Shown here one piece after another: positions 28,454 through 59,097 of a stretch of DNA of 64,000 bases. Origin of the DNA: Actinoplanes sp. L3-i22 (GTDB lineage Bacteria; Actinomycetota; Actinomycetes; Mycobacteriales; Micromonosporaceae). The notes below the pieces were generated by a model. That model was not told where the DNA came from. It did not search any database and saw only the letters and a list, made by a program, of their open reading frames with translations. The position numbers were made by a program, and so were the translations under genes. The stretch is taken from NCBI RefSeq assembly GCF_019704555.1, contig NZ_AP024745.1, forward strand, positions 8,812,501 to 8,876,500, in the 5' to 3' direction. Position 1 is the stretch's first letter. Each line of letters starts with the position of its first letter.

Positions 28454-28690
28454 CCCCGCCCCTGCCCCCTTCCGCCCCAGCCCTGCCCCCTTCCGCCCCA
28501 GCCCTGCCCCCTTCCAGCCCAGCCCTGCCCCCTTCCAGCCCGGACCTGACCACTCCCGGCCCAGCCCTGCCCCCTTCCAGCCCGGACCTGACCACTCCCG
28601 GCCCAGCCCTGCCCCCTTCCAGCCCGGACCTGACCACTCCCGGCCCAGCCCTGCCCCCTTCCAGCCCGGACCTGACCACTTCCGGCCCGT
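28454..28690. repeat. Tandem 21-bp and 42-bp repeats
   Basis: Directly after the LacI stop there are about three copies of a 21-bp unit (AGCCCTGCCCCCTTCCGCCC type) followed by about four copies of a 42-bp unit made of that 21-mer plus AGCCCGGACCTGACCACTCC-type sequence. Both periods are multiples of three, so several frames stay open on each strand, but none has a start and ribosome-binding site that I would trust. The following stretch to 28855 contains no gene. Confidence 0.85.
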
Positions 28691-28855
28691 CGGATGATCC
28701 GCGGCGGCCCGGCGGCGCTTCCTCCACCGCGGCTCGTTCGGGCACTCGGAGGCCTGGGTTTCTGGGCTGATGGCGCGGGATGTCGGCTGTCCGACCCACC
28801 ACCCCGGCCCGGTTTGCCAGGCTGGTCCTTTCACGCCAGGCGAGAGGAGAGCCCG

Positions 28856-29248
28856 ATGGACAGCGCCACCCTGCTCGAGAAGGCCAAGGCCGCGACCGAC
28901 AACGCCACGGTCGGCCGGGTGTTCGGCGACCCGGTCGAGCGGGACGGCATCGTGCTGCTGCCGGTGGCCAAGGTCTCGGCGGGCGGCGGAGGTGGCAGCG
29001 GCAGCGGCTTCACCCCGACCGGCGACGCGGCGGTCACCGACCAGAAGCCGGGGCAGGGCGAGGGGTCGGGCGCCGGCTACGGCCTGCACGCCGAACCGGC
29101 CGGCGTCTTCATCCTGCGGGACGGCGAGGTGACCTGGAAACCGGCCCTCGACATCAACAAGATCATCCTGGGCGGCCAGGCGGTCGCGGTCGTGGCACTG
29201 CTGGTGGCCCGCTCGATCCTGCGCCGCCACCTGCGTCACCACCACTGA
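28856..29248 (+). CDS. GerW/YtfJ-family sporulation-like protein
   Basis: A 130-residue protein with GAGGAG 6 bases before its ATG. It matches the GerW (YtfJ) family: LLEKAKAATDNATVGRVFGDPVERDGIVLLPVAKVSAGGGGGSG, a Gly-rich middle, and GYGLHAEPAGVFILRDGEVTWKPALDINKIILG. A C-terminal hydrophobic segment (AVAVVALLVARSIL) with a His/Arg tail may anchor it. In Bacillus the family is needed for spore germination; in actinobacteria its role is not established. Confidence 0.82.
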   Translation: MDSATLLEKAKAATDNATVGRVFGDPVERDGIVLLPVAKVSAGGGGGSGSGFTPTGDAAVTDQKPGQGEGSGAGYGLHAEPAGVFILRDGEVTWKPALDINKIILGGQAVAVVALLVARSILRRHLRHHH

Positions 29249-29743
29249 CCCGGGCGCCGCCGCCCACTCGCCCGGCCACCGCTCAGCTGCGGGCCGGGGC
29301 GCCGCCGTCCACTCGCCCACCCACTCACCCGGCCACCGCTCAGCCGCGGGCCGGGTCGCCGGCCACTCGCCCGGTAGGCGCGAAGCCGCAGGCCGGGCGA
29401 CCGTTGGCTGCCCACCCGGCAAGCGCGAAGCCGCGGACCGGGCCGCCGCGGGCTGCCCGTCCGGCGAGTGCGCAGCCGCGGGACGGCTTGCTGGTGGTCG
29501 CCCAGCTGCTGGTCGTTCGACTACTGGTCGTGCCGCAAGCAACCGCACCAACCACATAACCCACCCACCCGAGGGGGAAGACCCGCTGACCAGTATCGCC
29601 GCAAATCGCAAGATCACGTGGCCGGCCTGTGGACAACCCGCTTGTGTGGACAACGGCTCCGGGCAGCGAACTTCGGTGTATAAGGCCACCTCGCCTCAGC
29701 GCGCTCACCGCTCCGAACTTCAGCGCCTCCGTGCCTCAGTGCC
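29249..29743. other. Low-complexity intergenic stretch with a DnaA-box pair
   Basis: About 500 bases without a supported gene. The first 200 bases are imperfect GC-rich repeats built on CACTCGCCCGGCCACCGCTC. Near the right end lie two copies of TGTGGACAA (29628-29636 and 29645-29653), the reverse complement of the actinobacterial DnaA box TTGTCCACA, spaced 17 bases apart. Confidence 0.5.
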
Positions 29744-30418
29744 TCATGGCTCCGGGTAGCGGGCGAGCCGCAGGCGGTGGGCGAAGACCGCCAGGGTGCC
29801 GGCCGTGCAGATCACCCAGACCACGGCGAAGTGGGCCAGTCCCCGCCACAGGAAGCCGATGTCCGCGTCGTCCACCGCGTACGTACCGATCTCCCGCACC
29901 GACCAGAACGGCATCAGTTTCGCGGCCAGGCCGGCCGGGTCGGCGAGCATCTGGACCGCGCAGACGCTGAGCAGGGCCAGGGCTCCTTCCAACTCGCGGG
30001 GCAGCAGGGCGCCGACGAGGCTGCCGAACGGGGCGGCGACCAGGGCGGCCATCAGCATGATCAGGCCGGCCGCGAACGGGTGCGGGACGGTCTGGTCGAG
30101 GCTGACCAGCACCCAGTAGCCGAGGGCGAGCAGCGTCCCGGCGCCGCTCATGGCCAGCAGGCGGCCGCCGACCAGGCCGGCGACCGAGGCGCCGGAGAGC
30201 CGCAGGCGCGGGTCGACGCCGCGGGACGCGTTCACCACGAACAGGGTGAGCGTGGAGATGGCCCAGCCGATGCCGAGCGACAGCATCCGCAGCGACTGGC
30301 CGGTCAGGTCCCGCCGGACCAGGTAGAACCAGAGCGGCAGGGCGATCACCAGCAGGACCGCGGCGCGCCGGCGGCTCACCTCGCGGGCCGAGAGTCCGGC
30401 CACCACCAGCGCGGTCAT
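29744..30418 (-). CDS. ABC transporter membrane subunit
   Basis: A 224-residue membrane protein with about six hydrophobic segments (AAVLLVIALPLWFYLV, MLSLGIGWAISTLTLFVV, LAMSGAGTLLALGYWVLVSL and others). Its ATG overlaps the stop of the ATPase gene by four bases, so they form one exporter. I see no motif that defines the substrate. Confidence 0.75.
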   Translation of the reverse strand: MTALVVAGLSAREVSRRRAAVLLVIALPLWFYLVRRDLTGQSLRMLSLGIGWAISTLTLFVVNASRGVDPRLRLSGASVAGLVGGRLLAMSGAGTLLALGYWVLVSLDQTVPHPFAAGLIMLMAALVAAPFGSLVGALLPRELEGALALLSVCAVQMLADPAGLAAKLMPFWSVREIGTYAVDDADIGFLWRGLAHFAVVWVICTAGTLAVFAHRLRLARYPEP

Positions 30419-31236
30419 CGGCGCTCCCCCAGGTCCAGCACGTGGTCGACGCTGGTCAGGTCGTGCAGCAGGTGGGTGACGACGACCACGGCGCGGCCGG
30501 CGTCCCGCCAGGCGTGTACCTGGCGCCAGAAGTCCAGGTACGTCCCCTGGTCGAAGCCCTGGTACGGCTCGTCGAGCAGGAGCAGGTCCGGAGCGTGGAG
30601 CTGGCCGAGGACCAGGTTGAGCTTCTGCCGGGTGCCGCCGGACAGCTGCTGTGCCCGCTGGGCCCGTTCCGGGCGCCAGGCCAGCTTGGCGGCCAGGTGG
30701 GCGCCGGTGGAGCGGGCTCGGCGCGGGACCACGCCGGCCGCCGCGCCGAACAGGGTGAAGTGTTCGTCGGCGGTGAGCCAGCCGGCGGTGCCGCCGTCCT
30801 GCGGGACGTAGCCGACCCGCCGGGTGCGGTGGACCGTTCCGCTGTCCGGGCGGGTCAGGCCGGCGCAGATGCGCAACAGGGTCGACTTGCCGCAGCCGTT
30901 CGCGCCGACGACGGCGGCGACCTCGCCACCCCGTACCGTCAAATCGACGTCTTGGAGGACGGCCCGGCGCCGGAAGCGCTTCCCGACGCCGGCGAGACTG
31001 AGCAGGACCGGGCCGGCCGTGGCGAAGCGGGGTGCGGCGGCGACCGGCGCGGCGAGCTCGGCGACCAGGTGGCGGGCGTAGAGGTGGGCCGGGCCGAACA
31101 GGCCGGCCGGGTCGGCGGCGTGCTCGGCGGCCTGGGCCGAGGTGTCCTCGGCGAGCCGCCGGGCGCGCGGTTCGGGCACGCCGAGCCGGACCAGCTCGGC
31201 CTGGAAACGGGCGGGCCAGCTCTCCTCCGTACGCAT
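30415..31236 (-). CDS. ABC transporter ATP-binding protein with N-terminal extension
   Basis: A 273-residue ATPase. Walker A is GANGCGKST, the signature LSGGTRQKL, Walker B LLLLDEPYQGFD and the H-loop VVVVTHLLHDL. Before the ATPase domain there is a helical extension of about 75 residues (WPARFQAELVRLGVPEPRARRLAEDTSAQAAEH) that is not part of the usual fold; it resembles a stand-alone helical domain found in some PadR-linked loci. It follows the PadR gene with a one-base overlap. Confidence 0.85.
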   Translation of the reverse strand: MRTEESWPARFQAELVRLGVPEPRARRLAEDTSAQAAEHAADPAGLFGPAHLYARHLVAELAAPVAAAPRFATAGPVLLSLAGVGKRFRRRAVLQDVDLTVRGGEVAAVVGANGCGKSTLLRICAGLTRPDSGTVHRTRRVGYVPQDGGTAGWLTADEHFTLFGAAAGVVPRRARSTGAHLAAKLAWRPERAQRAQQLSGGTRQKLNLVLGQLHAPDLLLLDEPYQGFDQGTYLDFWRQVHAWRDAGRAVVVVTHLLHDLTSVDHVLDLGERR

Positions 31237-31592
31237 CAGGCGTCTCCTGAATGATCGCGGACCGTGACCGGCGCAGCGGCCTCGAGCAGGGAGTGCACGC
31301 CCTGGCTGAAGCGGGCCCAGTGCGCGGCCTGCTCGGTGAGCACGGACTGGCCGGCGGGGGTGATCTCGTAGTACTTCCGGCGGGGGCCGAATTCGGACGG
31401 CGTCCAGGTCGGCACGGCAAGACCCTGCTCTTCGAGACGGAGCAGCGCAGGATAGAGGGTGCCGCCGGGGACGTCGGCGACCCCGGCCGCGGCCAGGCGC
31501 TGGGCCAGGCCGTAGCCGTAGTCGGCACGTTCACGCAGCATGGCCAGCAGGCACAGGTCGAGGACGCCGTGCAGCCACGGCTTGGGCATCAT
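31236..31592 (-). CDS. PadR-family transcriptional regulator
   Basis: A 118-residue winged-helix repressor: LLAMLRERADYGYGLAQRLAAAG, then the recognition/wing segment GGTLYPALLRLEEQGLAVPTW and RRKYYEITPAGQSVL. It is the first gene of the PadR-ATPase-permease operon and has a clear palindrome just upstream, so it probably represses its own operon and responds to a compound exported by the ABC pair. Confidence 0.9.
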   Translation of the reverse strand: MMPKPWLHGVLDLCLLAMLRERADYGYGLAQRLAAAGVADVPGGTLYPALLRLEEQGLAVPTWTPSEFGPRRKYYEITPAGQSVLTEQAAHWARFSQGVHSLLEAAAPVTVRDHSGDA

Positions 31593-31623: not shown

Positions 31624-31672
31624 ACCTAGTCGGGTCACGGAAAAATAAAGTTGGACGGGGTGGTGCACAGAA

Positions 31673-32215
31673 GTGGGGGCGGCCGGCGTCGATGAGGATG
31701 TGACCTTCGAGCAATTCGCGATGGCCCGCCTGCCCAGCCTGCTGCGGTACGCGGTCGTCCTCACCGGCGACCGTCATCTCGCACAGGATGTCGTGCAGGA
31801 GGTGCTGGCCCGAGCCCACGTCAAGTGGCGGCGGATCAGTGGCGCGGACTCTCCGGAGGCGTACGTCCGGCGCATGGTGCTCAACGAGTACCTGTCCTGG
31901 CGGCGTTCCTGGGCGGTCCGCAACCTGCATCTGGCCGGAGAGCGACTGGTCGAGATCGACGACGCGCGAGGCGGGGTCCACGACCACGCCGACCGGATCG
32001 CCGAATCGGACGAGCTCTGGAACAGGCTGGCCACGCTGGGACGTAAGCAGCGTGCAGTGCTCGTACTCCGCTACTACGAGCAACTGGACGACGAAAGCAT
32101 CGCGGACCTGCTCAACTGCTCACCGGCGACGGTGCGCAGCCAGGCCTCGAAGGCACTCCGCACGCTCCGCATGGAATCGGAGCGACAGTTACATTTTGCC
32201 GAGGAGAAGTCGTGA
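31673..32215 (+). CDS. ECF RNA polymerase sigma factor (SigE-like subfamily)
   Basis: A 180-residue sigma factor. Region 2: FEQFAMARLPSLLRYAVVLTGDRHLAQDVVQEVLARAHVKWRRI; region 4: LGRKQRAVLVLRYYEQLDDESIADLLNCSPATVRSQASKALRTLR. This is the SigE70 subfamily common in actinomycetes. It starts with GTG at 31673 (upstream ribosome-binding site weak). Its stop overlaps the GTG of the repeat-protein gene by four bases, and that in turn overlaps the amidoligase gene, so all three form one tightly coupled operon. Confidence 0.88.
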   Translation: MGAAGVDEDVTFEQFAMARLPSLLRYAVVLTGDRHLAQDVVQEVLARAHVKWRRISGADSPEAYVRRMVLNEYLSWRRSWAVRNLHLAGERLVEIDDARGGVHDHADRIAESDELWNRLATLGRKQRAVLVLRYYEQLDDESIADLLNCSPATVRSQASKALRTLRMESERQLHFAEEKS

Positions 32216-33000
32216 CCGACCACGGTGACCGGCTGCGCGAGGCCTTCGTGAGCCGCGAGTCCCAGACCCCAGACCCGGCCGAGGTTTACGCCCGGGTCGT
32301 CGAACTGTCCAGCAAGCACAAGTGGCGCCGCCGCGGCATGACCGTCGCCGGGGGCACCGCGCTCGGCGCCGGCCTGATCGCCGCCGTCGTCAACCTGCCG
32401 GCCGTCCTCCCCGGCAGCCCGTCGGGCGGGAGCGCGGCCACGGCCCCGATCGTGGCGGCGGCCCCGGCCTCCGCGACGCCGAGCGCCGACCCGACCGCCG
32501 AGTGGGACGCCTACGGCCAGGCCGGCTACGGCTACGACGAGGCCCTCGCCCTGGCCAAGCTGTGGAACATGCCGACCAGTGACATCGGCGCGGTCAAGGG
32601 TGAGGCCGGGCGCCGCCTGCTCGCCGGGCAGACCCTGCCGATCAAGCCGGCCCAGGTGGAGGCGGTGCCGGACTCGGTGACCGAGTTCTTCAGCGCCGGC
32701 TACGGCTACGACGACGCGGTCAAGCTGGCCAAGTTGTGGCACCTCAAGACGCCGTACGACGCCAAGGTCGCCGGTGGCAAGAAGCTGCTCGCCGGCCAGC
32801 ACCTCCCGTTCAAGCCGAACCCGGCGACGGCCCAGGAGAACCGCGAAGGCATCCAGGTCGACGCGTTCTTCGCCAAGGGTTACAACTACGACGACGCGGT
32901 CAAGCTGGCCAAGCTGTGGAAGCTCAAGACGCCGTACGACGCCAAGGTCGCCGGCGGAAAGCAGCTGCTCGCCGGACAGACCCTGCCGATCAAGCCGTGA
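32212..33000 (+). CDS. Membrane protein with three 45-residue tandem repeats
   Basis: A 262-residue protein with a 42-residue cytoplasmic N-terminus like those of SigE70-linked anti-sigma proteins (MTDHGDRLREAFVSRES), one membrane segment (about residues 43-65), an Ala/Ser/Pro linker and three extracytoplasmic repeats at residues 100-146, 159-202 and 219-262. Each reads G-Y-x-Y-D-[D/E]-A-x-x-L-A-K-L-W, then a middle part (T-P-Y-D-A-K-V-A-G-G-K in repeats 2 and 3), then L-L-A-G-Q-x-L-P-[I/F]-K-P. Repeats 2 and 3 are also close at DNA level, indicating recent duplication. I do not recognise the repeat family. It is encoded between a sigma factor and an amidoligase-like enzyme. Confidence 0.75.
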   Translation: MTDHGDRLREAFVSRESQTPDPAEVYARVVELSSKHKWRRRGMTVAGGTALGAGLIAAVVNLPAVLPGSPSGGSAATAPIVAAAPASATPSADPTAEWDAYGQAGYGYDEALALAKLWNMPTSDIGAVKGEAGRRLLAGQTLPIKPAQVEAVPDSVTEFFSAGYGYDDAVKLAKLWHLKTPYDAKVAGGKKLLAGQHLPFKPNPATAQENREGIQVDAFFAKGYNYDDAVKLAKLWKLKTPYDAKVAGGKQLLAGQTLPIKP

Positions 33001-34046
33001 CATCGAGGTTGCGCCGGCGCACCGGCTTCGAGATCGAGCTGATGGCCCCCGCCGGGGTCAGCCGGCGCACCCTCGCCATGGACCTGGCCGGACGCTGCGG
33101 GGGCAGCGTCCGGCCGGTGTGGCACTCCGACAGCGAGCCGTCCCTGGTCCCCGGGCTCGGGCGGTTCCTGCACCTCACCCAAGGCTTCGAGGTACGCCGC
33201 CCGGACGGCACGCTGCTGTGCACCCTGGTCGACGACATCACGCTGCTGGCCGGCCTCGACCCGGCCACCCCGCCGCTGCCCGGCTGGTTCCGGGTGCTCA
33301 CCGACGACTCGCGGCTGGTGCGCCTGCTCGCCCGGCACAGCGATCCCGGCGGCACGATCGACACCGCGCTGGCCCCGGCCGCCGAGCTGTGGGGCACCAA
33401 GGTCCAGCAGCACGGCGAGTTCTACCGGCTCAACGACGCCGCCGAGACGACCATCGCGCTCGCCGCGCCGCTCGGCGGGGAACGCGAACGGCCCTGCGAG
33501 ATCGTCACGCCGCCGCTCACCACCGACCACGCCGCCCGCCTCGAAGAGCTGCTCGAGCCGGCCCGTGCGCTCGGGTTCACCGTGCCCTACGAGGCGGCGG
33601 TGCACCTGCACGTGGACGGGGCGCCGTTCCGGGCGCCGCACGCGCTCGCCAATCTGGTGCGGCTCTTCGCCTACTGGCGCGAGCCCCTGCGGGCGGTGCT
33701 TCGCACCAACCCGGCCTGCCGCCGGCTCGCTCCCCTGCCCGGGCCGCTGGTGGATGCGGTTCAGAGCATTCCTACGTACGGCGATCTGCGCGCGGCCGCG
33801 ACGGCGGGGGAACTCACCAAGTTCTTCGACGTGAACCTGACCCAGCTGCTGACCGACACGCCGGTGCGGGACACCGTGGAGATCCGGATCCTGCCCGGGG
33901 CGATCACGGCCGGGCCGATCGTGGATCAGGCGGCGCTGGTGGAGCTGCTGCTCGACCGATGCCTGGATCCGGCGCCGATCCCGCGCGGGGATGATGTCGA
34001 GGGGCTGCTGGAGCTGGCCGCGGAGGCGCTCGCCGCACGGGACTAG
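32997..34046 (+). CDS. Putative amidoligase (GS-like COOH-NH2 ligase)
   Basis: A 349-residue soluble protein starting with a GTG that overlaps the previous stop by four bases. It has the landmarks of the Amidoligase_2 family: G-F-E-I-E-L near the N-terminus (Glu12, Glu14), RPCEIVTPPL in the middle and VHLHVD (His203, His205, Asp207), followed by ALANLVRLFAYWREPLRAVL. These enzymes have a glutamine synthetase-like fold and are thought to form amide bonds on peptides or proteins using ATP. The substrate here is unknown; the adjacent repeat protein is an obvious candidate partner. Family assignment is from motif recall. Confidence 0.65.
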   Translation: MTSRLRRRTGFEIELMAPAGVSRRTLAMDLAGRCGGSVRPVWHSDSEPSLVPGLGRFLHLTQGFEVRRPDGTLLCTLVDDITLLAGLDPATPPLPGWFRVLTDDSRLVRLLARHSDPGGTIDTALAPAAELWGTKVQQHGEFYRLNDAAETTIALAAPLGGERERPCEIVTPPLTTDHAARLEELLEPARALGFTVPYEAAVHLHVDGAPFRAPHALANLVRLFAYWREPLRAVLRTNPACRRLAPLPGPLVDAVQSIPTYGDLRAAATAGELTKFFDVNLTQLLTDTPVRDTVEIRILPGAITAGPIVDQAALVELLLDRCLDPAPIPRGDDVEGLLELAAEALAARD

Positions 34047-36299: not shown

Positions 36300-37283
36300 T
36301 CAGTAAACCGTGGGCCAGCCTGTCGCGCTCCAGGACAGCAGGTTCAAGCCGAGCTTCGCGTCACCAGCGGCGGTGTAGTAGTGATACACCAGCACGTCCG
36401 CGTCGGTGTCGGCGAAGACTGCCGGGTGGCCTGGTCCATAGATGGCGTCGTGGGAGGCCAGGATCTCGGTGCCGCCGCCGGCTGTGGTCAGGGTGCCGGC
36501 TCGGTCCTTGTACGGGCCGGTGATCGACGTCGAGCGGGCGACCATCGTCCGGTAGGTGCTGGACGCGCCCTTGCAGCACAGGTCGAACGCCATGAACAGG
36601 TAGTAGTAGCCGTTGCGGTAGAAGATGTACGGCGCCTCGACCGACTTGCTGTTCACGAACCGCTCGGCGATGTTGTACAGCGTGCTGTCGGCGCGCTTGC
36701 CGGTCGACGGGTTCAGCTTGACCATTTTGAGGCCGGTCCAGAACGAGCCGAAGCTCAGGTACCAGTCGCCGGCCGGGGTGACGGTCAGGTTCGGGTCGAT
36801 GGCGTTCCAGCCGCTGCTGGTGGTGGACTCGACGACCTTGCCGTAGTCGGTCCAGGTGCCGGCCGCGCCGGTGGTCGAGGTGGCCATGAAGATCGCCGAC
36901 TTGCTGGAGCCGAAGGTGGAGGCGGCGTAGTACATGACGTACTTGCCGCCGTGGTAGGAGATGTCCGGTGCCCACAGGTTCGCGCTGCCGCCGGTGTACG
37001 CGTCCGCCCAGGACGTGCCGTTCGGGAACGCCTTGCCGGCGTCGGTGAACTTCGTCCGGTCGGTGGACGTCTTCAGCGTGATGCCGTCACCGGTGGTCGC
37101 CATCAGGTAGCCGCCGCCGGGCTTCTTGACGATCGTCGGGTCGTGCGCCGCGGTCGAGCCGGTGACCGCGCCCGGGTTGGGGTACGTGGCGGCGCTTGCC
37201 GTGGTCAGGCCGTAGACGCTGGCCGCGATCGCGACGACGCCGGTGACACCGGCGAGCAGCGTCTTGCGGAGACGGGATTTCAT
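36300..37283 (-). CDS. Secreted GH43 arabinan endo-1,5-alpha-L-arabinosidase-like enzyme
   Basis: A 327-residue secreted enzyme. From the ATG at 37283 there is a signal peptide (KSRLRKTLLAGVTGVVAIAAS, cleavage after ASA near residue 31). The GH43 catalytic set is visible: Asp48 (AAHDPTIVKK, base), Asp163 (WNAIDPNLTV, pKa modulator) and Glu216 (KSVEAPYIFYRNGYYYLF, acid). The active-site segments GSANLWAPDISYHGGKYVMYYAAS and GPGHPAVF are those of arabinanases. With the AbfB surface protein and the GH42 operon it suggests breakdown of arabinogalactan-type plant polymers. Confidence 0.88.
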   Translation of the reverse strand: MKSRLRKTLLAGVTGVVAIAASVYGLTTASAATYPNPGAVTGSTAAHDPTIVKKPGGGYLMATTGDGITLKTSTDRTKFTDAGKAFPNGTSWADAYTGGSANLWAPDISYHGGKYVMYYAASTFGSSKSAIFMATSTTGAAGTWTDYGKVVESTTSSGWNAIDPNLTVTPAGDWYLSFGSFWTGLKMVKLNPSTGKRADSTLYNIAERFVNSKSVEAPYIFYRNGYYYLFMAFDLCCKGASSTYRTMVARSTSITGPYKDRAGTLTTAGGGTEILASHDAIYGPGHPAVFADTDADVLVYHYYTAAGDAKLGLNLLSWSATGWPTVY

Positions 37284-37401
37284 CGGGGGCAACACCTTCC
37301 GGGGATGGGGATGTACCCGCAAGGTGTGCCACCACCCCGGAAAGGTTGCCCAGCCGGACAAAGAGCCAGACAAAGGGCCGGGCGAAGGGCCGGGCGAAGA
37401 G

Positions 37402-38157
37402 TCAGGCGGAGAGATCACCCAACAGGTCACGGGCCGCCGGGGCGATTCGAGGGGTGACTCCGAGTTCCGCCAGCAACTCGGTGGCGGCGGCCATCTCCTC
37501 CCGGCGGCGGACGGCGTGCTTCGATGAGCCTTCGACCAGCCGGTCCAACGTGGCCGCGTCCGCCTTGATCAGCTCGGCGGCGATGTTGCCGCGCAGCCAC
37601 TCCTCCAGGCCGGCTGCCCGGGCCGCGGTCAGCGCCTCGACCACCGCGGCCGCCATACCCTTGTAGAAGACGCTGCGCAGGAGCTTGCGGGTGGCCGCGG
37701 TGCCCACCGGACCGTCCAGGACAAGCACGTCGGCGCCGAGCCCGGCGAGGATGTCGGCGAGCCGGGACGCGGCCGCGCCCGCCATCGTCATCGGCGTGCA
37801 CAGGCCCTTGCCCGGGACCGGGGACATCAACGCGACGTCGACCACGTCGACCGCCCCGGCCGCCTCGGTGCTCAGCAGCTGCTTCAACGACGGGGTGGCC
37901 GTGTTGAGGTCCGCCCAGATGGCACCGGGTTCGCACGCCGGGAGGGCGGCACGCAGCGCGTCGACGGCGTCGGCGGCACTGTTGACGCTGAGGACGACGC
38001 GCGCGCCGCGGCAGGCATCGGCATCGCTCTCCGCGGGATGGACACCCGGCGGCGGGGCCACCTTGGGGTCGAAGCCACGGACGGTGACGCCGGCGGCGAC
38101 GAGGTCGGCGGCAATCAGGCGGCCGGCCTCGCCGAGCCCCAGTACAGCGATGATCAC
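37402..38157 (-). CDS. NAD(P)-binding 6-phosphogluconate dehydrogenase-like protein (DUF1932)
   Basis: A 251-residue beta-hydroxyacid dehydrogenase-like protein. The Rossmann motif is AVLGLGEAG at residues 4-12, followed by SVNSAADAVDALRAAL, and a C-terminal DUF1932-type helical domain (TRKLLRSVFYKGMAAAVVEALTAARAAGLEEWLRG). The start is GTG with GGAGG 7 bases upstream. It is divergent from the galB-like gene across a pair of GntR operators. Such genes recur in gallate and protocatechuate 4,5-cleavage clusters; the reaction is not settled, but reduction of a keto acid intermediate is plausible. Confidence 0.78.
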   Translation of the reverse strand: MIIAVLGLGEAGRLIAADLVAAGVTVRGFDPKVAPPPGVHPAESDADACRGARVVLSVNSAADAVDALRAALPACEPGAIWADLNTATPSLKQLLSTEAAGAVDVVDVALMSPVPGKGLCTPMTMAGAAASRLADILAGLGADVLVLDGPVGTAATRKLLRSVFYKGMAAAVVEALTAARAAGLEEWLRGNIAAELIKADAATLDRLVEGSSKHAVRRREEMAAATELLAELGVTPRIAPAARDLLGDLSA

Positions 38158-58836: not shown

Positions 58837-58848
58837 GACCTCGCCACC

Positions 58849-59097
58849 CCGGACCGCCGCCCCACCCCGGACCGCCGCCCCACTCCGGACCGCCGCCCCA
58901 CTCCGGACCGCCGCCCCACTCCGGACCGCCGCCCCACTCCGGACCGCCGCCCCACTCCGGACCGCTGCCCCACCCTCACGCCAGCACCCCCTCTCCAAGC
59001 CCCGCGGCCACCCCGCTCTCACCCCTGCCCCCAGCTCCAAGCCGAGCGGCCACCCCGCTCTCACCCCGGCACCCCGCTCCAAGCCGGGCGGCCACGC
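58849..59097. repeat. Tandem 18-bp repeat followed by a 42-bp repeat
   Basis: Seven copies of an 18-bp unit, CCGGACCGCCGCCCCACT type, run from 58849 to 58974. A second series begins at 58993 with a 42-bp unit starting CTCCAAGCC at 58993, 59035 and 59077, ending near the stop of the minus-strand YciI-like gene. No gene is supported here. Confidence 0.85.

Follow-up and report, generated by a model that had tools for sequence, protein, structure and literature searches.

An exported repeat protein encoded with an Amidoligase_2 enzyme and a SigE-family sigma factor in Actinoplanes: a candidate lysine-modifying surface module

The genome of Actinoplanes sp. L3-i22 (12.0 Mb on one contig) contains, within the 64,000-nucleotide stretch analysed here (the window), a plus-strand trio of genes at 31673-34046 that encodes an ECF sigma factor, a repeat membrane protein and an amidoligase. 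We find that the repeat gene and the ligase gene recur together in other genomes and very likely form a dedicated pair under a narrow sigma regulon. We tentatively read the trio as a surface module under an ECF sigma factor that controls its own operon, in which the ligase would modify a conserved lysine of the repeat.

Results

Layout of the locus

A preliminary description of this DNA had noted three genes joined by four-base overlaps. All three are present, and both gene junctions are 4-bp overlaps reading GTGA (32212-32215 and 32997-33000). Since the trio is conserved in other genomes, a chance arrangement is excluded. The features, in window coordinates, are as follows.

31664..31693, plus strand: ECF-type promoter, TGCACA-N17-CGTCGAT, with the same element 5' of the sigma gene in relatives
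31700..32215, plus strand: SigE-family ECF sigma factor, from a TIGR02983 match and a conserved start and promoter
32212..33000, plus strand: repeat protein of 262 aa with HMM-defined repeats
32509..32649, plus strand: repeat 1, aa 100-146 (HMM domain, 74.4 bits), with K129 at 32596-32598
32686..32817, plus strand: repeat 2, aa 159-202 (HMM domain, 86.9 bits), with K185 at 32764-32766
32863..32997, plus strand: repeat 3, aa 218-262 (HMM domain, 85.2 bits), with K245 at 32944-32946
32997..34046, plus strand: Amidoligase_2 enzyme of 349 aa, from a PF12224 match and a predicted glutamine-synthetase-like fold

A PADLOC search returned one marginal match at the locus, to the sigma factor, and nothing else. 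Directly upstream of the sigma promoter lie divergent genes for a PadR-type regulator and an ABC transporter ATPase (30415-31592, minus strand), and the interval between these genes and the promoter holds a TAACTGCTTAGCAG-like near-palindrome that is found again in some close relatives. Elsewhere in the window are a GH43 family glycosyl hydrolase (36300-37430, minus strand; PF04616, 179.5 bits), a Spore_YtfJ (PF09579) protein (28694-29248, plus strand) adjoining tandem arrays of 21/42-bp and 45/57-bp units at 28455-28689 and 29263-29486, and an 18-bp unit in 7.2 copies with 98% match (58844-58973).

The repeat and ligase genes occur together

The preliminary description had treated the three genes as parts of one system, a reading that a lack of co-occurrence in other genomes would have refuted; the genes do co-occur widely. 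Our genome searches scored only candidates from a loose first look, and absence holds at that sensitivity. Among 60 relatives, the own genome included, 34 carry the repeats and the same 34 carry the ligase. The correspondence extends to 345 genomes of the class, where repeats and ligase were each found in the same five, again including the own genome; a search of the class genomes with the PF12224 model finds these five as well. In 296 genomes of the phylum, repeats were detected in the own genome, in one further genome where the ligase is present (G869) and, as a weak half-repeat, in a third where no ligase was found (G802). A search for the ligase only, across 250 genomes of the family, located it in 61. 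Two genomes of the same genus (G029 and G030) yielded neither repeats nor ligase.

To describe gene order we used as named loci the best 80 of 111 ligase relatives from a scan of GTDB contigs. These come from Actinoplanes and allied genera, Cellulomonas, Promicromonospora, Kineosporia, Kineococcus, Actinotalea, Curtobacterium, Frigoribacterium, Sanguibacter and MAGs. A repeat protein is present at all 80 loci, and at 79 its gene is directly upstream of the ligase gene, with its stop within 600 nt; at the exception (L150) a repeat gene follows the sigma gene, and a second ligase is preceded by a repeat gene. A 4-nt overlap between repeat and ligase genes is possible at 45 of the 80, a count made by a start-choosing script that leans towards overlap and that assigned no start codon at 7 loci.

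A related sigma factor (E<1e-6) lies at 69 of the 80 loci. At the other 11 none was found: three of these contigs (L149, L165 and L172) stop just after the ligase, while the remaining eight continue past it, some of them beginning shortly upstream. Because of these 11 loci, we regard the repeat-ligase pair as the core unit. The layout is also not always an overlapping trio, since at one locus of G265 (L084) the repeat gene and an intact ligase gene are about 1.3 kb apart with no sigma match in the 9 kb of sequence read there; a second locus in this genome has a sigma gene, a repeat gene and a broken ligase gene. Cellulomonas and Promicromonospora loci mostly have two repeat genes, one (protein 1) ahead of the ligase gene and the other (protein 2) behind the sigma gene that follows the ligase; by inspection protein 1 begins with a plain export signal, and in protein 2 the hydrophobic segment is preceded by a longer N-terminus. 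The nearest named protein matches and loci come from Actinoplanes. Actinoplanes missouriensis carries the repeat and ligase genes as AMIS_57710 and AMIS_57720; none of the papers searched mentions either of them, or AMIS_57700, the extrapolated tag of the sigma gene.

The third gene encodes an Amidoligase_2 enzyme

The third protein scores 61.8 bits with Amidoligase_2 (PF12224), at an E value of 1.2e-16 and against a cut-off of 22. This is its sole Pfam match at E<=1, and the earlier assignment as amidoligase-like thus holds, with no unrelated family scoring better. Its predicted fold is glutamine-synthetase-like, common to YbdK, GS, GCL and Dop. The motifs comprise ExE (E12, E14), E168, HxHxD (203-207) and ExR (E295, R297), and the roles of the ExE, E, HxH and ExR active-site residues are known from GS. 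Across 81 relatives and the query, these residues are intact wherever aligned, with gaps at E12/E14 in two rows. By inspection the ligase has no signal sequence, and it is the single PF12224-type ligase found in its genome. Identity as a Pup ligase (PafA/Dop) was considered and rejected, since PF12224 is the sole Pfam family at E<=1 and no Pup-ligase HMM matched. Two ligase genes among the relatives have damaged reading frames, from assembly error or decay: one in G031 (L086), broken into three pieces, and the second copy in G265 (L085), which is interrupted.

The repeat protein appears to be an undescribed exported family

Three repeats of about 45 residues had been noted in the second protein, and an HMM recovers all three at 74-87 bits each, the model having been built from relatives together with the window protein itself. 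The protein begins with an N-terminus (aa 1-42), followed by a hydrophobic segment at about aa 43-66 and then by the repeats; by inspection, the N-terminus is presumed to be cytoplasmic and the repeats to lie outside. Each of the 103 repeat proteins encoded at the named loci has a hydrophobic export or membrane segment ahead of its first repeat, and the number of repeats per protein varies from 1 to 4. In the predicted structure (36 sequences; mean pLDDT 75, repeats about 90) each repeat consists of three helices and no strands. A simple scan (raw counts) found a twin arginine (RR) before the hydrophobic segment in 44 of 44 Micromonosporaceae-type proteins and in 41 of 59 other repeat proteins; the sequence of the window protein has it as well. 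RR is missing from 18 of these 59 and so is not a feature of the whole family, and a Tat route, with export in the folded state, is probably not general.

Searches of Pfam and NCBIfam with the repeat protein returned no family at E<=1, and the protein is apparently undescribed. The LysM label carried by some UniRef records was rejected, the predicted three helices without a strand being at odds with the beta-alpha-alpha-beta of LysM; PF01476 gave no match to the query at E<=1 and is absent among the 25 of 35 families listed for 36 members. The wall-binding CW_7/Cpl-7 repeat (PF08230), which also has three helices, is likewise absent among those 25 families and among the fold matches, a comparison that tests small helical folds poorly. 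Anti-sigma family HMMs from Pfam and NCBIfam did not match. The arrangement is nevertheless anti-sigma-like, with an N-terminus, a membrane segment, an outer domain and an adjoining sigma gene, and by this layout the N-terminus may be an anti-sigma domain.

A near-invariant lysine in the repeat

The only near-invariant charged residue of the repeat is a lysine, which forms an invariant column for each of the three repeats in a plain alignment (A2, 36 rows). In the HMM alignment of 259 repeats from the named loci, Trp and Gly32 each occur 259 times, Lys 257 times and Arg, at the lysine position, 0 times. Position 11 is acidic in most of these repeats (210 Asp and 27 Glu of 259), the others having Asn (13), Ala (3), Ser (3), Thr or Gln.

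A wider set of 215 proteins, gathered by protein searches, was aligned with the same HMM, which was seeded with units picked by a Lys-demanding pattern and so favours Lys-bearing repeats; Lys is present in 562 of its 598 repeats. Lys-less repeats were found anyway: 36 of them, with Q (15), V (6), E (5), I (4), M (2), R (1) or a gap (3) in its place. They all fall in 23 proteins from a group in which Clavibacter and Frigoribacterium are represented, and these proteins are related, so that few independent events are represented. The search set that contains the Lys-less group has 216 repeats, of which all retain Trp and 214 retain Gly32. Every one of the 215 proteins retains at least one repeat Lys, and in the 23 it lies in the middle repeat of 22 (three repeats found) and in the first repeat of one (two found). 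The lysine thus looks functional rather than structural, since in this set it is lost from single repeats in which Trp is kept and never from a whole protein. As read from the alignments, this pattern would fit a modification site and a binding site alike and does not separate the two.

The sigma factor and its promoter element

The sigma factor had been described as a SigE-type ECF factor, which agrees with a match to TIGR02983 (SigE-fam_strep) at 144.4 bits, above the cut-off of 141.55. Its reading frame had been given as starting at 31673, but the true start is probably the GTG at 31700, since a conserved promoter occupies 31664-31693 and the relatives use the aligned GTG. As this GTG comes immediately after the promoter, the transcript in the window probably has no leader. 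For Actinoplanes sp. SE50/110, leaderless transcripts are described from 1179 start sites (14.03% of CDS; PMC7682106).

By a rule that tolerates one mismatch in TGCACA and requires a spacer of 16 or 17 bases and an exact CGTC, the element is found 5' of the sigma gene at 38 of 46 loci (L097-L142; raw local-scan counts), with the other 8 failing the rule. A version of the promoter with a GAAAA tract has a single occurrence in the own genome, at the sigma operon. Across 40 genomes this version has 19 matches against 5 for a reversed control, and 10 of the 19 sit at the sigma operon, as judged by comparing positions with the places found in the repeat search. The sigma factor may transcribe from the TGCACA/CGTC promoter. 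The SipA/SsdA sigma system of A. missouriensis (AMIS_54230/54240) is another locus (PMC10733313).

The element is also found at other genes. Nine orphan repeat genes, with no sigma or ligase gene adjoining, occur in the relatives' genomes; the set derives from 10 secondary repeat places, of which one proved to be the operon itself (L207), with weak places in G022 and G027 left out. The element is directly upstream of eight of the nine (raw local-scan counts), exact in seven and with one mismatch in one; at the ninth (L203) the scan gave just one copy, which lies about 100 bases off and has one mismatch. As read from the sequences, the repeats of these orphan genes all have the conserved lysine. 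At loci L143-L176, of which 33 of 34 were scanned (L161 omitted; raw local-scan counts), the element with at most one mismatch precedes the first repeat gene at 19 and is absent at 14.

The pattern TGCACA-N16-CGTCNTA is not enriched by itself: in 60 genomes it occurs 26 times and its reversed control 25 times. Because the two counts are equal in effect, only its placement is informative. By position, 7 of the 26 matches are at sigma operons and 2 at orphan repeat genes. The own genome has a single match, and the gene that starts 6 bases after it encodes a second class E sortase (G000:C1:9965389-9966414; NF033747, 211.7 bits against a cut-off of 160), the first being at G000:C1:54148-55125. The G031 ortholog of the second sortase has TGCACG-N16-CGTCTAA at the same place, with one mismatch. 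Among 28 other sortase loci, a comparison that left out the first class E sortase of the own genome, 27 lack the element even when one mismatch is allowed, and the remaining locus has such a site at a different position. No gene with a sorting signal was seen among the neighbours of the second sortase. In A. missouriensis, of five sortases only the single class E enzyme is described as needed for sporangium formation (PMC13251363), and against this single enzyme we regard the second class E sortase here as an extra copy.

Discussion

The reading of the locus as a signalling or surface-modification system, put forward in the preliminary description, is strengthened by the hydrophobic segment in 103 of 103 repeat proteins, the shared promoter and a sortase gene with the same promoter. 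The gene pairing, the predicted GS fold with intact active-site motifs, the lysine conservation, the hydrophobic export or membrane segments and the shared promoter element are seen in the sequence; the repeat protein as substrate, the lysine as acceptor, the donor, use of the promoter by the sigma factor, an anti-sigma function and a surface role are inferences. In the module that we tentatively propose, the sigma factor would drive its own operon from the TGCACA/CGTC promoter and would act in trans on stand-alone repeat genes in relatives and on the second class E sortase gene in this genome. The operon would produce an exported protein of three-helix repeats and a dedicated cytoplasmic, ATP-dependent ligase of GS fold. 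Before or during export, the ligase would activate a carboxylate and attach it, through the epsilon-amine, to the conserved lysine of the third repeat helix, and the decorated repeats would be displayed at the wall. The form of the repeat protein that has a cytoplasmic N-terminus might double as the anti-sigma factor, so that the state of the surface repeats would feed back on transcription.

That the lysine is the acceptor of the ligase is a possibility we hold with reserve. It is favoured by the pairing of the genes and their possible overlap, by the pattern of lysine conservation and by the precedent of Dop/PafA, whereas the topology speaks against it: the ligase has no signal sequence and the repeats lie behind a hydrophobic segment. 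The conserved Lys and Trp, moreover, could equally be a ligand-binding site. Also weighing against the module as a whole are the lack of an anti-sigma HMM match, the 11 loci at which no related sigma factor was found, and the sigma genes (8 of 46) and first repeat genes (14 of 33) that lack the promoter element by the rules used. Nearly as likely as the lysine-modifying module is an arrangement in which the ligase makes or modifies a wall precursor or small metabolite in the cytoplasm and the outer repeats bind the product through a Trp/Lys site; the membrane-anchored repeat protein would then be a sensor and anti-sigma factor, and the free repeat proteins would be binding proteins, a scheme similar to that of RsgI anti-sigma factors, which share their binding modules with the cellulosome under their control. 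An enzyme inside and repeats outside fit the topology, for which binding accounts better than lysine modification does, and the conservation of W, K and G, the variation from 1 to 4 repeats as in binding repeats and the class E sortase with the same promoter suit it too. However, comparisons by Pfam, PDB sequence and fold yielded no known binding-domain family for the repeat, small helical folds being poorly tested, and binding alone leaves the possible repeat-ligase overlap at 45 of 80 loci unexplained.

An ordinary ECF envelope-stress operon, with an unrelated protective metabolite, a plain anti-sigma factor and a structural lysine, seems unlikely. SigE-family sigma factors with short membrane partners are common in actinobacteria, and a ligase family of the Amidoligase_2 type can serve metabolite synthesis, both of which speak for such an operon; yet the pair occurs without a related sigma factor at eight loci that do not end just after the ligase, ligase and repeats are found in the same genomes, and Lys-less repeats keep Trp, which indicates that the lysine is not needed for the fold signature. 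Still less probable is a ligase that cross-links the repeats to one another or to the wall by Lys-Asp/Glu isopeptide bonds, yielding a covalent surface polymer. The mostly acidic position 11 beside the conserved lysine and the sortase with the same promoter are compatible with it, but that position is also Asn, Ala, Ser, Thr or Gln and may be a helix cap, and the reaction would be required before export.

If the lysine-modifying module is right, it would add a lysine modification serving a dedicated exported protein, coupled to a sigma circuit that senses the product. A related formulation, which we consider somewhat doubtful, is a new protein-modification system: the amidoligase, of GS fold, would link an amino acid or other small molecule to the fixed lysine of the exported three-helix repeat, and the regulator of the sigma factor, bearing that same repeat, would sense whether modified product is there; if true, this would be a surface counterpart of pupylation. 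Since the unit points to a single partner protein, residue and promoter, and the model organism A. missouriensis has the repeat and ligase genes, it is directly testable.

The ligase resembles Amidoligase_2 enzymes in its family HMM score above cut-off, its predicted GS-like fold and its ExE, HxH and ExR residues, and differs from the family at large in belonging to a subfamily whose partner is a single family of exported repeat proteins. Iyer et al. 2009 is reportedly the main comparative study of amidoligases, and to our knowledge no protein has been demonstrated to be the substrate of an Amidoligase_2 enzyme; in titles and abstract openings of the amidoligase literature, no such unit, partner or protein substrate is described among the matches listed. 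In contrast to pupylation, where PafA/Dop act with Pup, the partner here is an exported repeat protein rather than a cytoplasmic tag, and the acceptor is putative. As in SigE-family (TIGR02983) sigma/anti-sigma pairs, a gene for a membrane partner adjoins the sigma gene and a conserved promoter precedes it, whereas here the outer part is a repeat also found in proteins with plain export signals, and a ligase is added. In SigI/RsgI of cellulosome bacteria, too, a membrane regulator shares its extracellular module with proteins that would be under its control; the sigma class and the modules here are different, and the ligase is part of the unit.
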